From Crocinitomix sp. (GTDB lineage Bacteria > Bacteroidota > Bacteroidia > Flavobacteriales_D > Crocinitomicaceae), in NCBI GenBank assembly GCA_020849935.1, contig JADZFJ010000118.1, forward strand, positions 1 through 15,023: 15,023 nt of DNA. Reading direction: 5' to 3'. Of this stretch, positions 3,701 to 14,941 are shown in pieces. The notes beneath the pieces were generated by a model, which ran no database searches, was not told the origin of the DNA, and saw only the letters and a program-made list of their open reading frames with translations. The stretch's first letter is position 1; every line of letters begins with the position of its first letter. The position numbers and the translations under genes were made by a program.

Positions 3701-4890
3701 TTTTAGATTTCGAAGTGCCAATTGGTGATGCATTGCAATTAGGAACTGCAATTGGCTCAAGTCCTGACTTGTATAGAAATGATGCTGGCGCTGCTTATCC
3801 GTATCTATTGGCTGAATCTATCGAGATTGTTGGCAGTAGCACAGGCCCCGAATTTTACTATTTTTTCTATAATTGGGAAATTCATCCATTCAATTGCGCA
3901 AGTGATCGTATACCTGTAACTGCTGTAGTTGAATATGATTCTGATATTACAATCGAAGCTGTCGATGACGTTTGCCTTGAAGGAGAATCATTAACACTAA
4001 GTCCAAGTGAACCTGGTGGAACATGGTCTTCTGATTGTGGATTATGTATTGATGAATTAACGGGTTCATTTGATCCAGCTGTTTCTGGAGTTGGAACGTG
4101 GGAAATTTTTTATACCGTTCCCCACACTTGCAGTTATTTAAACAGCTTGTTTGTCACTGTAATCGAATCTACAATTACAATTGATCCTGTGGCTGATATC
4201 TGTAACTTAGCGGATCCAATCTTATTAACAGCGAGTGAGATTGGTGGAACATGGACTGCAACGTGTGGAGCATGTATTGATGAAGTGACAGGCGAATTTA
4301 ATCCAACTACAGCAGGAATTGGTTCTTGGGAAATTGTTTATACCGTTGCTGGAACATGCAGTGAATATAATCCAATTACAATTAACGTGATTGAGTCGGA
4401 TATCGAGATTTATCCGATAGATCACCTGTGTCAACAAGGAGATCCAGTGATCTTAACGGCAAGTGAACCAGGTGGAACATGGTCAGCATCATGTGGTGCA
4501 TGTATTGATCCCGTAACTGGCGCGTTTAATCCAGCTCTTGCTGGAATTGGTGAGTGGACAATTACCTATGATGTGGATGGAACGTGCAGTAGCTACAATA
4601 CTTCAATTGTTTATGTCGTGGATTGTTTAGGTCTTCCAAACGAAGATCAATTTAACGTCACTCTCTATCCAAATCCCAATAATGGTTTGGTGAACGTCAA
4701 TATGGGTGGAATTTCTGAAGGCGATATCATCATTAAAGATGTCTTAGGAAAAACCGTTCTCGTTTATCACTTTACGAATTCTCTTTTTTCTGTTGACCTC
4801 AAAAATAGTCATTCAGATGGAACCTATTTTATAGAATTCTATACCAATGCGGGTCAGTTAATTGGTGTTAAAAAAATTATTAAGCAGTAA
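709..4890 (+). CDS. Secreted M4 (thermolysin-like) metallopeptidase with PKD, CUB and T9SS C-terminal domains
   Basis: A 1393-residue extracellular zinc endopeptidase. The ATG at 709 was chosen because it begins a clean signal peptide (MIRYCSKKILTLIFLVLPLG, then IFAQ); the frame stays open upstream to a TTG at 553, but that extension is polar and would bury the signal. A propeptide follows (FTP about 77-131, PepSY-like to about 200). The M4 catalytic domain (about 248-560) has HEVAH at 382-386, zinc ligand Glu406 in NESFSD, and the transition-state His469 in GGVHTNSG; the spacing fits thermolysin. Then come PKD1 (about 566-640, WDFGDG at 598), CUB (667-774), PKD2 (about 778-850, WDFGDG at 812), an Ig-like domain (about 865-922), a beta-sandwich stretch (about 930-1060), three 76-residue repeats (1079-1306) and a T9SS type A C-terminal domain with LYPNPNNG. 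It is inferred to be exported by Sec, then T9SS, and anchored or released at the cell surface to degrade protein. Family is certain; substrate is unknown. Confidence 0.95.
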   Translation: MIRYCSKKILTLIFLVLPLGIFAQKIYQGDEAAALFPNAELVRDSQFSSLPSFIRFRESNQFDIDQYKKWMNDHFKLDPNIGFNLIRTESDELGHVHYRYQQTYLGKLIEDPTWIVHTNNDKVYALNGLIYEQIVTPTAASLSESEALEKAMESVGAETYKWQLSEEEEHLKIETGDSTASFFPKGELVFVSQNYSFDSQTFRLAYKFNIYAHQPVSRAEIYVDAVTGAIIRENEIIHHIDTPGTAHTVYSGDREIIADSFGGTYRLRDLSRGNGVRTYDMNTGTSYGSSVDFTDIDNDWNNINPQKDQYATDAHWGAEMTYDYFLDIHGRNSIDNAGFQLNNYVHYGVNYYNAFWDGSRMTFGDGPGGAITPLTSIDIAGHEVAHGLTTFTAGLIYYAESGALNESFSDIFGASIERFARPDDYNWLLGEDIGTHFRSMSNPNSKGHPDTYFGTYWASLVGGDSGGVHTNSGVQNFWFYLLTEGGTGTNDIGNAYSVSSLGIEASSAIAFRNLTVYLTSSSQYIDARFFSLQAAQDLYGGCSNEVEQTANAWYAVGVGGIYDPTTIASFSTLDTFGCALPFEANFTNSSFNGITYLWDFGDGTTSTEENPTHVYTAAGIYTVTLNADGGACGSDELVLASYIEVDPDAECIITLPPDGILGVQRGCDGTIYDSGGPFANYGAGENSQVTIDPLGAVSVNLDFITFSVEAGPGLTCNYDDLSIYDGPSIFSPLIGKYCNNNLPSDLTSSGSAITLAFHSDGGLELSGFNIEWSCNPPDDVPETDFIVNSEITCSGLAYFTDLSTNIPIAWAWDFGDGGTSTLQHPVHEYLTEGTYTVTLVATNLVGDNMEIKTDYVTVAFPETPTVVGDTNCVDQTATLVAVGEGTLKWYTEAAGGVPFFEGDTLTTLPLAITTTYYVEDDLYDSPEFVGPVDNTFGTGGYFSGDQFLVFNNPSPVFLKSVDVYAGSAGSRTIELRNNLGGVIESMTVDVPAGESTVVLDFEVPIGDALQLGTAIGSSPDLYRNDAGAAYPYLLAESIEIVGSSTGPEFYYFFYNWEIHPFNCASDRIPVTAVVEYDSDITIEAVDDVCLEGESLTLSPSEPGGTWSSDCGLCIDELTGSFDPAVSGVGTWEIFYTVPHTCSYLNSLFVTVIESTITIDPVADICNLADPILLTASEIGGTWTATCGACIDEVTGEFNPTTAGIGSWEIVYTVAGTCSEYNPITINVIESDIEIYPIDHLCQQGDPVILTASEPGGTWSASCGACIDPVTGAFNPALAGIGEWTITYDVDGTCSSYNTSIVYVVDCLGLPNEDQFNVTLYPNPNNGLVNVNMGGISEGDIIIKDVLGKTVLVYHFTNSLFSVDLKNSHSDGTYFIEFYTNAGQLIGVKKIIKQ
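3943..4626 (+). repeat. Three in-frame 228-bp tandem repeats inside the metallopeptidase gene
   Basis: Three consecutive 76-codon units start at 3943, 4171 and 4399 with no length difference. Each unit has cysteines at repeat positions 11, 32, 35 and 63, an E-x-GGTW motif near position 25, a C-G-x-C-I-D motif, and a conserved F-[DN]-P near position 43. Units two and three look closest to each other. They are beta-rich, disulfide-capable modules between the catalytic part and the sorting domain, probably a spacer or a binding stalk. Unequal crossing-over could change their number. Confidence 0.85.
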
Positions 4891-12203: not shown

Positions 12204-12668
12204 ATGGAAAAGGAATATATCGATTGGATTCACGAATTGAAAATTAAAATTCGTGCTGCACAACTTAAGGCCAATATAGCAGTAAATGAAGAAATGCTAA
12301 TACTTTATTGGGAGATTGGTAAAAGCATTATCGAGAAACAAAATCAATTTGCTTGGGGCAGCAAAATTGTTGAACAAATGGCCAAAGATTTGAAGCGAGA
12401 ACTGCCAGAAACAAATGGTTTTTCAAGAACTAACCTATTTGAAATGCGTAAGTTTTATTTGTTCTACAAGGACAGTAAATTAGTCCACCAGCTTGGTGGA
12501 CAATTAGAACTTACAACCTTAATTACCGAAAATGAAATAGCACAACAAACTGCTAATCAATTGTCCAAAGACAGTATTTTAAGTAAAATTCCTTGGAGGC
12601 ATCACGTCCCTACTTTAAATAAAAATTACGTGCTGTTGTGTGCCACCATATCCCGCTATACGCTATAG
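12204..12668 (+). pseudogene. DUF1016 / YhcG-type protein, truncated after the N-terminal domain
   Basis: The open frame encodes 154 residues. Residues 1-135 match the DUF1016 N-terminal domain (YhcG family): a helical start, LYWEIGKSI, WGSKIVEQMAKDLKRELPET, GFSRTNLFEMRKFY, then the conserved LSKIPWRHHV. Family members are usually around 340-370 residues, with a C-terminal PD-(D/E)xK nuclease-like domain. Here the similarity stops abruptly after HHV (base 12608), and 19 unrelated residues run into a palindromic repeat. The nuclease domain is absent from this window. The gene is therefore a truncated remnant; an active free-standing N-terminal domain is possible but unlikely. YhcG-type proteins are often found in mobile or defence-associated loci. 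A weak promoter-like TACCTTCG occurs at 12153-12160. Confidence 0.75.
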
Positions 12669-12786
12669 TTGTCGCCTTGGCGCATAAGTCAACTAGGCTG
12701 TTTTGCTCATTTCCGCTGGTCATAAGCAAACAACCAGTTAACTAAATGCGCCAAAACGCCAAGCTGCCGCTGCTATCGGGGGTGGT
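12645..12786. repeat. 142-bp imperfect palindrome, copy A
   Basis: This copy aligns without gaps to 14800-14941. Over the core (12666-12786) I count 14 differences in 121 bases; the outer 21 bases are less alike (6 differences). It folds on itself. TTGGCGCAT at 12677-12685 pairs with ATGCGCCAA at 12746-12754. AACTaGGcTGTTTtGC (12691-12706) pairs with GCAAACAACCAGTT (12726-12739), with two bulges and one mismatch, leaving a loop near 12707-12725. A small CGCCTTGGCG hairpin lies within the left arm. The ends resemble inverted repeats (ACCA and TGGT). It lies between two truncated genes. It encodes nothing and is probably a non-autonomous mobile element or a hairpin repeat family. Confidence 0.8.
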
Positions 12787-13030
12787 AATCCTTCTTGCCC
12801 GTCAATTGGGACATGAGCTGTTTGATTTTGGAATTTCTCTTGGCTATCAATTTACCTTTTCGCGCAATAAAAAACTTTGTTTCATGCTAGGTTTAAAACA
12901 TACATTTTTTCCTTATGTGTACGATAAAGGACTTGAATTTTATGATATTCCTAGCTCACCCAGAAATGTTTCAACCTTGACACTTGGAATTGGATTTAAT
13001 TTCACTAAAAAGACAAATCAAATCCCTTAA
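12787..13030 (+). pseudogene. C-terminal remnant of an outer-membrane beta-barrel protein
   Basis: About 80 codons in frame, ending at TAA 13028-13030, begin immediately after palindrome A. The translation contains LFDFGISLGYQFTFSRNK, LCFMLGLKHTFF, and VSTLTLGIGFNF, which are alternating hydrophobic strands of an outer-membrane beta-barrel with an aromatic near the end. A start, signal peptide and the rest of the barrel are missing. The apparent ATG at 12746 lies inside the repeat and would not give an exported protein. It is best read as the 3' end of a porin-like gene (PorT or OMP_b-brl type) cut off at its 5' side. Confidence 0.65.
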
Positions 13031-13104
13031 ATCAGTTTATTTAACTAATTTTAATCAGAAAGATTCCTACATAAGGTGCGACATTTGATTGAAAAGAAAC
13101 AATA

Positions 13105-13680
13105 ATGACCGATTCACATATCCAAATAAATACGTTAGGAATGGCTCATTTTTGCATTCATCATAACGATCCAATTGACATTCTTAGAGAGTACTATTCT
13201 ATTTCAAACTTATCAGAGAAGCAATCAGTAAAAAAAATAGATTGGGACTTTATTTACAAGGAAAACGAAAAAAGCAAGAGATTTATATTACTTACAGACT
13301 TGAACGGCTGGAGTTATATTATATGGACATACTGGGACTTTCAGGAAAATGTGGTTTTAGCCACTGACTTCTCTAAAATACTAAAAACAACAGTAAACTA
13401 TTATTTTGTTGACTCTTATATTGCCACATCAAGATGGGTTTTTGCTAACAATGGTATATTAACACGAGCTTATTTTGAATCTCACGGAAATAAACTATTC
13501 GATTTCGGTACCAATGAAGTTGAATCAGAATTAAGATTGAATATAAAAGAAGTTTTTGTTGAGAGTATTTTTTGGGATTTATACGAAAAGACTTGTCAAT
13601 CGCTTGAACTTGTGAATAGACAAAATAGAAAAGAACTAAAATTGTATACAGGCTTGCTCGAAGATAGGAAAAACAACTGA
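13105..13680 (+). CDS. Uncharacterised 191-residue protein, distantly immunity-like
   Basis: A soluble, aromatic-rich protein with no signal peptide or membrane segment. The start ATG follows an A-rich leader (AAGAAACAATA) and opens MTDSHIQINTLGMAHFCIHH. The central part has the order W-S-Y-I-I, a short acidic stretch, FSKILKTTVNYYFVDSYIAT, then SRWVFANNGILTRAYF and a following glycine. That order (W-[ST]-h-h-h, FS or LS, h-x-F-x-x-x-x, W-h-x-x-x-x-G-x-h-x-R-x-Y) resembles a group of uncharacterised small bacterial proteins thought to be immunity-like, but this is recalled similarity and not a search result. No toxin gene is adjacent. It is AT-rich and sits in the decayed region, so it may have been acquired by transfer. 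Function unknown. Confidence 0.7.
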   Translation: MTDSHIQINTLGMAHFCIHHNDPIDILREYYSISNLSEKQSVKKIDWDFIYKENEKSKRFILLTDLNGWSYIIWTYWDFQENVVLATDFSKILKTTVNYYFVDSYIATSRWVFANNGILTRAYFESHGNKLFDFGTNEVESELRLNIKEVFVESIFWDLYEKTCQSLELVNRQNRKELKLYTGLLEDRKNN

Positions 13681-13811
13681 TGGCAGCTAAGACCTACACA
13701 TTACCCGACATAAAGCCCGCTTCCCCATCAAGGCAAAAATTCAGAATTCAACCAATACCCCCAAAAAATTAAAAACAAAATAATAACTTTGGCTTTGTGT
13801 AACCCACTTAG

Positions 13812-13841
13812 TTGGTCGCATGAAATTGTGACGTATTTTTG
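13812..13841 (+). promoter_or_regulatory. Candidate promoter of the OmpA-domain gene
   Basis: TTG at 13812-13814 and TATTTTTG at 13834-13841 are 19 bp apart, an exact fit to the Bacteroidota consensus (TTG, 17-23 bp, TAnnTTTG). It places transcription start near 13848, about 63 bp before the ATG at 13911. A second TAACTTTG at 13784-13791 lacks a good partner element. Confidence 0.5.
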
Positions 13842-13910
13842 TCCAATCCTACTCTTATCTTAATGGATGGGTTTTTAAACAAAGTCACTATTTTAAAAGC
13901 AAGTTGAAAA

Positions 13911-14774
13911 ATGGAAAATAATAGATTTAAAAATTTATTTCTAGTGCTGTTAGTGATCCTTTTCCTCATCGGCATTCCATATTTACTGTATGCCTTGGGG
14001 TCATTAATCCAAATCAATTCATTCGGCTATATCAATAATTGGTGGATTGTTTTGCTTTTTATCGTTGTACTCATTTCCGTTTTTATCCTGCGGCGCCTAA
14101 ATTTTGACAAATACATGGGCCATTTTTTCCTTTTGCTCCTTACCATTCCCTTTTTTCTCCTTGGCATCAAATTGGGCACAAACTCCCCAATCGACATGGA
14201 TTCTTATGCCTTGCTCGTGGAAAAAGAGAAACAAATCGATCAGTTGGACGCCGAACGCACCAATTTAGAAAACGACTTATTCAATTTAGAAAATCACGCT
14301 GCTCAAAATACAGATTTTAAACGATACGAACTTGTTTTCTTCGAACCCAATCGCGCCGAGCTTTCGGAATACAACAAAAACAAAATTAAGGACTTCATCT
14401 CCACCCAAGAAAATTGCAAATTAAATGTCAACGGATATTCAGACGATTCCGGAAATGAATCAACCAATATGGAAATCTCATTAAAAAGAGCGAACAATGT
14501 AGCCGACTATATCAGGTCTATCAATTTAGAAAATCATACCATCCGTAAGGTTCAAGGGTATGGCCACAGCGACGAATTAACCGCCAATAAAAATGAATTG
14601 TCCCGCGCCATTAACAGAAGAGTCAGCATTGAATTCGTCGAAAAAAATGACATCGTAATTGTATCTGGCAGGATAAGGATTCACGAGGACCTCACCAAAA
14701 CTAGCCACCAACTAAAAGTCCTGAAAGAACAAAGAGACAGCCTGCGAACGCTCATTTTTACGCCTGAAGACTAG
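13911..14774 (+). CDS. Three-TM inner-membrane protein with periplasmic OmpA-like domain
   Basis: A 287-residue protein with three predicted transmembrane helices (about 8-30, 44-61 and 70-88), an acidic coiled-coil stretch (about 100-130), and an OmpA/MotB-type peptidoglycan-binding domain (about 143-243). In that domain FFEPNRAELSE opens the fold, GYSDDSG (175-181) and NRRVSIEF (235-242) carry the Asp and Arg known to hold diaminopimelate, and LKRANNVADYI is the expected helix. An odd number of helices with the N-terminus inside would put the domain in the periplasm. About 44 charged residues follow the domain. OmpA domains usually sit on lipoproteins, barrels or MotB-like one-TM proteins, so three helices are unusual. 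It stands alone with its own promoter-like sequence. It could anchor an inner-membrane complex to the wall; its partner is unknown. Confidence 0.8.
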   Translation: MENNRFKNLFLVLLVILFLIGIPYLLYALGSLIQINSFGYINNWWIVLLFIVVLISVFILRRLNFDKYMGHFFLLLLTIPFFLLGIKLGTNSPIDMDSYALLVEKEKQIDQLDAERTNLENDLFNLENHAAQNTDFKRYELVFFEPNRAELSEYNKNKIKDFISTQENCKLNVNGYSDDSGNESTNMEISLKRANNVADYIRSINLENHTIRKVQGYGHSDELTANKNELSRAINRRVSIEFVEKNDIVIVSGRIRIHEDLTKTSHQLKVLKEQRDSLRTLIFTPED

Positions 14775-14799
14775 TTTTACTTCTGTTTTTTTTATCAGA

Positions 14800-14941
14800 A
14801 CCTAATCCTGCTTTTCGCTTTAGTTGCCGCTTCGGCGCATAAGGCAACTAGGCTGTTTTGCCCGTTTCCGCTGGTCACATGCAAACAACCAGTTGGCTAA
14901 ATGCGCCAAAACCCCAAGCTGCCGCTGCAATCAGGGGTAGT
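14800..14941. repeat. 142-bp imperfect palindrome, copy B
   Basis: This copy pairs with copy A at a constant offset of 2155 bases, with no insertions or deletions. GGCGCAT (14834-14840) pairs with ATGCGCC (14901-14907), and GCAAACAACCAGTT pairs with the upstream AACTaGGcTGTTTtGC as in copy A. Here the first arm also contains TAGTTGCC and GGCAACTA flanking a CGC-TTCG-GCG mini-hairpin. It starts 25 bp after the OmpA-domain stop codon and could serve as its transcription terminator. The remaining sequence to the window end (14942-15023) is AT-rich and shows no gene. Confidence 0.8.

Follow-up and report, generated by a model that had tools for sequence, protein, structure and literature searches.

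The window analyzed here is a 15,023-nt stretch of a Crocinitomix sp. genome (contig JADZFJ010000118.1, assembly GCA_020849935.1), and a repeat search of it found two direct, gapless 142-nt repeats at 12645-12786 and 14800-14941 with 86% identity. These are the two gapless copies with one long hairpin that an earlier note on this DNA had described, and the stems named there are present in the predicted folds. That note left the element in an unknown class; we found that on the minus strand both copies match the full model of the Rfam family Flavo-1 (RF01705), at 34.0 bits (E = 8.6e-5) and 33.2 bits (E = 1.4e-4), and the element can now be placed in the Flavo-1 superfamily. The minus strand is also the strand of the window with the best fold. 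Our covariance model R2 (below) adds 3 nt to each copy on the lower-coordinate side, and the elements, both on the minus strand, lie at 12642..12786 (copy 1, ~145 nt; repeat search, Rfam match, fold and R2) and 14797..14941 (copy 2; repeat search, Rfam match and R2). Very probably, both are members of a long branch of this superfamily with a constant length of ~145 nt, in which a basal module carries a variable long stem with a conserved tip.

Since both scores fall below the RF01705 gathering cut-off (34 and 33.2 versus 42 bits), we term the copies long-form relatives of Flavo-1 and not plain members. Each carries ~75 nt beyond the RF01705 model, at the apex, and the match runs end to end. 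Hence, the ends of the element are Flavo-1 and the middle is not. The basal paired module (CCCCGAT..AGCGG / TAGCGGA.AGCGGGA) is present in the RF01705 alignments of both copies as well as in 12 copies of the Crocinitomix genome. Long and short forms have in common this module at both ends, the strand and a dispersed occurrence, and R2 also finds matches of short-form length (~80-100 nt) with E values of ~1e-14. The long form differs by its ~145 nt, its own inner stem (AGCTTG/CAACT) and its conserved tip (GYGACCANCGGAARC); it is an addition to a known family previously filed as small RNA.

Flavo-1 is listed as limited to Bacteroidetes in the Flavo-1 entry of Weinberg 2010, and a published passage counts it with the families of highest abundance among those filed as bacterial small RNAs. 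The passages on Flavo-1 or related repeats in open-licence PubMed Central articles (PMC9723704, PMC2864571, PMC9029176, PMC12306157 and PMC3733652) report neither a function nor a long form. RF01705 gave no match in 14 control genomes; the search with the long-form model covered the class alone.

We built covariance model R1 from 12 copies of the Crocinitomix genome and model R2 from 30 copies of six genomes. The 12 copies have a common structure of 43 pairs with compensatory change at 14, and in the 30 diverse copies (R2 structure) 27 of 28 pairs show such change. In the architecture, the foot is conserved and contains unpaired loops and a bulged base, and the upper stem is variable. Three sequence blocks are conserved in the family: GATAGNAGYGGCAGCTTG in the 5' arm, GYGACCANCGGAARC in the tip and AACTAWARYGRATAGC in the 3' arm. 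Their counterparts in copy 1, all on the minus strand, are GATAGCAGCGGCAGCTTG at 12760..12777, whose outer part is common to short Flavo-1, ATGACCAGCGGAAAT at 12709..12723 and CAACTATAGCGTATAGC at 12655..12671. The foot of the family covaries and reads 5'-TC-YR-CC ... GG-YR-GCC-3'; the terminal ACCA/TGGT symmetry proposed in the earlier note is clean in copy 1 only. The idea that the element is a defined unit, fixed in its ends and length, was borne out, as ends and length are near-constant in the long form.

On the 3' side of the element, the 38 long copies from genomes other than G000 and G020 (our labels) have a C followed by an A-run, with 58% A at positions +2 to +15 versus 30% further out, and the A-run is also kept in orthologous pairs. 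The element may reach ~8 nt further on this side, into the A-run. In genome G008, contig C20 carries three long copies (L089:8877-9018, L089:16009-16150 and L090:10928-11072), all in one orientation, that seem to hold ~14 nt extra ahead of the conserved GGTGC end and represent a further variant.

With copy 1 as query, the Crocinitomix genome (68% complete; 2.93 Mb in 576 contigs) yielded 20 matches, 14 of them spanning at least 120 of the 142 positions. R1 matches, whether long or short, occurred in 12 of 59 relatives, with the Crocinitomix genome counted. At E <= 1e-4, R2 found 58 matches in the Crocinitomix genome, 95 in G020 and 11 in G003; G020 is of the same family but another genus, is 99% complete and is the sole genome of its genus. 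R2 matches of either length occurred in 41 of 156 genomes of the family (E <= 1e-5) and in 44 of 296 genomes of a class sample (E <= 1e-6), again with the Crocinitomix genome counted; at most 20 candidates per genome were scored in the family run and at most 10 in the class run, which makes the copy numbers from these two runs minimum values. A covariance-model search of the kind suggested in the earlier note gave 58 matches in the genome itself and more in relatives, with the pairing conserved, and the outcome that the note had named as refuting did not occur.

Copy number among relatives ranges from none found to 95, and the copies are dispersed in the genome, nearly all of them intergenic, in both orientations and with no cassette arrays. 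Lengths among the matches listed are mostly ~140-150 or 65-105 nt, with few intermediate. About 25 among the matches listed for the Crocinitomix genome (counted by hand) have 139-148 nt, and the 88 listed for G020 comprise 83 of 128-151 nt (mode 145) and 5 of 66-77 nt. The earlier suggestion of recent spread agrees with the 12 Crocinitomix copies, which have a mean identity of 77%, but not with the 77 long G020 copies, whose mean pairwise identity is 46% and among which 3 pairs exceed 80%. There was no match in viral contigs (one exact pattern) or in plasmids and phages (a single blastn query each), a result of little weight.

We found that the fold is under natural selection in place, at loci that can be compared between species. 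One set comprised 13 loci from six genomes of one genus, where 8 loci formed 4 orthologous pairs; the other comprised 20 loci from three genomes of another genus (9/9, 6/6 and 6/7 of the listed copies), where 11 loci formed 5 groups. Across the 11 comparisons at 9 loci, element identity was 78-99% with 0-5 gap columns, and in 10 of 11 the element was more conserved than both of its 250-bp flanks, which include coding sequence. The sole exception was L287/L290, with the element below one flank (0.79 versus 0.83). With the fold of one species as reference, the changed pairs comprised 29 double changes that keep pairing, 22 changes on a single side that still leave a standard pair, and 25 broken pairs. 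Random placement would break ~82, and the reverse direction gave 28 versus ~80 (summed), under a crude null and with three comparisons from one locus. Hence, both the small number of broken pairs and the conservation of the element above its flanks indicate that the fold is selected in place. Between the Crocinitomix genome and its genus, no locus pair with two matching neighbors occurred among the fetched loci.

Covariation within G020 agrees. In the alignment of 82 matches, 86.8% of cells are paired versus 57.9% after shuffling and 31-43% after sliding, an estimate biased by a model that recovers only copies that still pair; 689 cells are double changes versus 222 ± 18 in shuffles. This alignment was fitted to R2, and 13 of the 82 matches were in the R2 training set; the orthologous loci provide the independent test. 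In the window, the minus-strand fold of copy 1 has z = -5.5 versus dinucleotide shuffles (0/200 as good), and copy 2 alone has z = -1.2 (25/200 as good). Hence, copy 2 is unexceptional by itself and the case for its fold rests on the family-wide covariation. The earlier proposal of selection on the folded form is therefore backed by orthologous loci as well as by covariation.

The folded form is that of one particular strand. Among pairs found from either strand, the ratio of G-U to A-C was 17:0 in the Crocinitomix genome and 38:19 in the diverse set, and of 90 copies, 82 fold better on the Flavo-1 strand than on the complement with RNA parameters, and 87 do so with DNA parameters. At orthologous loci, with both directions counted, Watson-Crick pairs changed to G-U 19 times and to A-C 7 times (p = 0.03). 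G-A was reached 13 times there, near the 19 for G-U, which is unlike RNA. Hence, the frequent G-A leaves RNA versus single-stranded DNA undecided in these data. Action of the hairpin at the DNA level rather than as a transcript is the more likely, at roughly 55:45, because there is no tie to gene direction and no recognizable promoter; this choice is not firm. The lack of a tie to gene orientation cautions that families of this sort should not be taken for small RNAs by default, and the constraints shown by the long form, with a working covariance model, make the question of function testable.

Genomic context was called from simple open reading frames (ORFs) of at least 100 aa, with a G020 set of 79 matches, two of them short. 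None of the 79 lay inside such an ORF. The gaps that hold G020 copies were 31 convergent, 37 tandem and 10 divergent, versus 8, 43 and 25 for element-free gaps (other gaps of at least 150 bp at the same loci; p = 4e-5), and the copies were nearer to stops than to starts, with medians for the two sides of 57 and 90 bp to stops and of 118 and 136 bp to starts. The sense:antisense counts in tandem gaps were 22:15 in G020, 8:11 for the 38 copies from other genomes and 1:7 for 17 copies of the Crocinitomix genome, or 31:33 in total. Beside copies of the Crocinitomix genome, 13 of 20 proteins matched Pfam, mostly over a near-whole profile and one of them as a DDE transposase, and 7 matched none.

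It is firm that these are long-form Flavo-1 elements of near-constant length and ends, that one strand folds and that selection maintains this fold in place at those loci where species were compared; the long form shows the constraints of Flavo-1 in its length, its three sequence blocks, its single strand and its pairing at individual loci. Our preferred reading, to which we give a probability of roughly 0.4, is that each copy would be a site acting in place, where one strand forms a hairpin, imperfect and with conserved internal loops, that a putative host factor recognizes. Folding would occur on an exposed single strand or as a cruciform arm, and we infer that a protein binds the element. 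New copies would arise occasionally, so that copy number differs strongly between species. Both the partner and the origin of the copies are less than firm in this scheme.

Several observations weigh against a site acting in place. No binding factor was identified for the hairpin, and G020 showed no replication-strand bias (38 copies on the same and 34 on the opposite strand, from the GC skew of 40 sampled stretches and 72 of the 88 listed copies). G020 alone showed the convergent preference; of the 38 copies from other genomes, 8 were in convergent gaps, as were 4 of 17 in the Crocinitomix genome, both counted without a control. In each of these two sets, one copy (1/38 and 1/17) lay inside an ORF of at least 100 aa. 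The well-paired columns of G020 have far more G-U (76) than G-A (26) or A-C (10) and lean toward RNA. The comparison from L244 to L234 breaks 11 pairs versus 11.7 under the null in this direction, and the ortholog set requires a model match in both species, which keeps decayed partners out of view. Finally, among 10 genomes of one genus, 8 have no element at the Lrp locus. Hence, the element is dispensable there, and together with the widely varying copy number this indicates that copies come and go. The two genomes that do have the element there carry other upstream sequence at this locus, and no clean empty site was obtained.

A broader form of this reading is tentative. The elements would be strand-specific hairpin sites found class-wide, near-fixed in length and as dense as ~1 per 40 kb, kept by selection at individual loci of Bacteroidetes chromosomes regardless of gene direction or transcription, as an unrecognized chromosome-level system of which Flavo-1 is the short form; one example would be sites where a structure-specific protein lands on single-stranded DNA. 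It is possible, but we doubt it, that the element is instead a structured RNA working in transcripts, in untranslated regions or read-through RNA, as it is filed in Rfam. Folding of one strand with G-U tolerated, selection at orthologous loci and proximity to gene 3' ends in G020 fit an RNA, and the table of Weinberg 2010 marks Flavo-1 as probable RNA, not cis-regulatory. However, the tandem gaps show no orientation preference, and divergent gaps are occupied too (10/78 copies in G020, 9/38 in other genomes and 4/17 in the Crocinitomix genome). In 75 G020 copies, no 5'-flank position except -1 exceeds 0.15 bits, and TANNTTTG, which we take to be the upstream promoter motif, precedes 3 of 75. 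In the passage on Flavobacterium psychrophilum that treats Flavo-1, matches are also described as indistinctly sense or antisense of transcribed regions, with many outside them. An intrinsic transcription terminator is highly improbable. Hairpins close to stop codons and enriched in the convergent gaps of G020 would suit one, but the 12 nt past the element on the folding strand are A-rich, not T-rich (at least six A in 29/76 G020 copies, at least six T in 8/76), and there is no U-tract; the complementary strand is T-rich in 22/76 and A-rich in 19/76, and a terminator does not account for the divergent gaps.

That the copies belong to a non-autonomous selfish mobile element, of the miniature inverted-repeat transposable element (MITE), enterobacterial repetitive intergenic consensus (ERIC) or repetitive extragenic palindromic (REP) kind and decaying after landing, seems unlikely to us. 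Dispersal with none found to 95 copies between relatives, sharp ends, a more closely related copy set in the Crocinitomix genome and lineage-specific presence at the Lrp locus (2/10) would favor it, as would the IS200-like Y1 gene and the reverse transcriptase match, one of each, in the Crocinitomix genome. The in-place selection in 10 of 11 comparisons is not neutral decay, however, and well-folded copies within one genome average 46% identity. The MITE-like or REP-like unit of the earlier note also failed where it was tested. A scan of 51 copies showed no target duplication, with flank identity peaking at a mean of 37% (for 2-mers), close to background, and G020, with 95 copies, has neither a Y1 (RAYT/IS200) transposase nor a reverse transcriptase. 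The surroundings of Y1 genes (29 stretches, with a few genes present twice) contained no long form, and 17 such stretches included one Flavo-1, ~1.8 kb from its Y1 gene. ERIC and Correia repeats are long imperfect palindromes, intergenic and of two size classes; the element resembles them as an intergenic imperfect palindrome of 100-150 bp with short and long classes, but it has no target duplication, is far more diverged and keeps its pairing in place. Like REP/RAYT systems it consists of dispersed extragenic hairpins, with a preference for convergent gaps in G020, but it is much longer and its richest genome has no Y1 protein. Retroposition with an A-tail was dropped, as the A-rich tail is weak in the Crocinitomix set and G020 has no reverse transcriptase.

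Integron attC sites are folded single strands with a conserved base, a variable top and a bulged base. An attC-like site recombined as a folded single strand by a tyrosine recombinase would share with our element the conserved base with unpaired loops and bulged base, the variable upper stem, the strand polarity and the lack of target duplication, and Xer-type tyrosine recombinases are present. It is very improbable all the same, and the earlier note was right to doubt it: none of 8 genomes has an integrase over the integron cut-off (TIGR02249; best 136 of 265 bits), the tyrosine recombinases of G020 likewise score below it, and the copies are dispersed without arrays and have no fixed orientation to genes. 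The motifs GTTRRRY/RYYYAAC, which we take to be the attC ends, are not seen at the ends of the element.

Beside copy 1, an ORF at 12204..12668 on the plus strand has its 3' part inside the element, and its residues 12-135 match DUF1016_N (profile 2-98 of 137). The similarity stops ~35 bp ahead of copy 1 with the profile incomplete, and a second ORF, at 12746-13030 and with no Pfam match, starts within copy 1. Copy 1 may be the junction between these two gene fragments. The neighbor of copy 2 is the gene for an OmpA-domain protein at 13911..14774 on the plus strand; copy 2 is antisense to it and lies ~22-25 bp past its stop.

Some further repeats were noted around the elements. G020 has two inverted pairs of long copies, L120:4249-4395/4428-4572 (32 bp apart) and L153:12835-12978/13072-13216 (93 bp apart), which resemble paired REP units. 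Copies of the Crocinitomix genome at L095, L096, L098, L101 and L104 have CACTCAAAACTCAAACTC-like runs in one flank and CCTTCGCTAAAGCTACGGA-like hairpins in the opposite one. Close to L098 there is a GGGACGTGAAGCATCACGTCCC palindrome, parts of which also occur near copy 1. Elsewhere in the window, positions 4006-4590 hold three 129-nt repeats at an exact spacing of 228 nt, with 73% and 68% identity to the first, within a large thermolysin-like protein with a type IX secretion system (T9SS) sorting tail.

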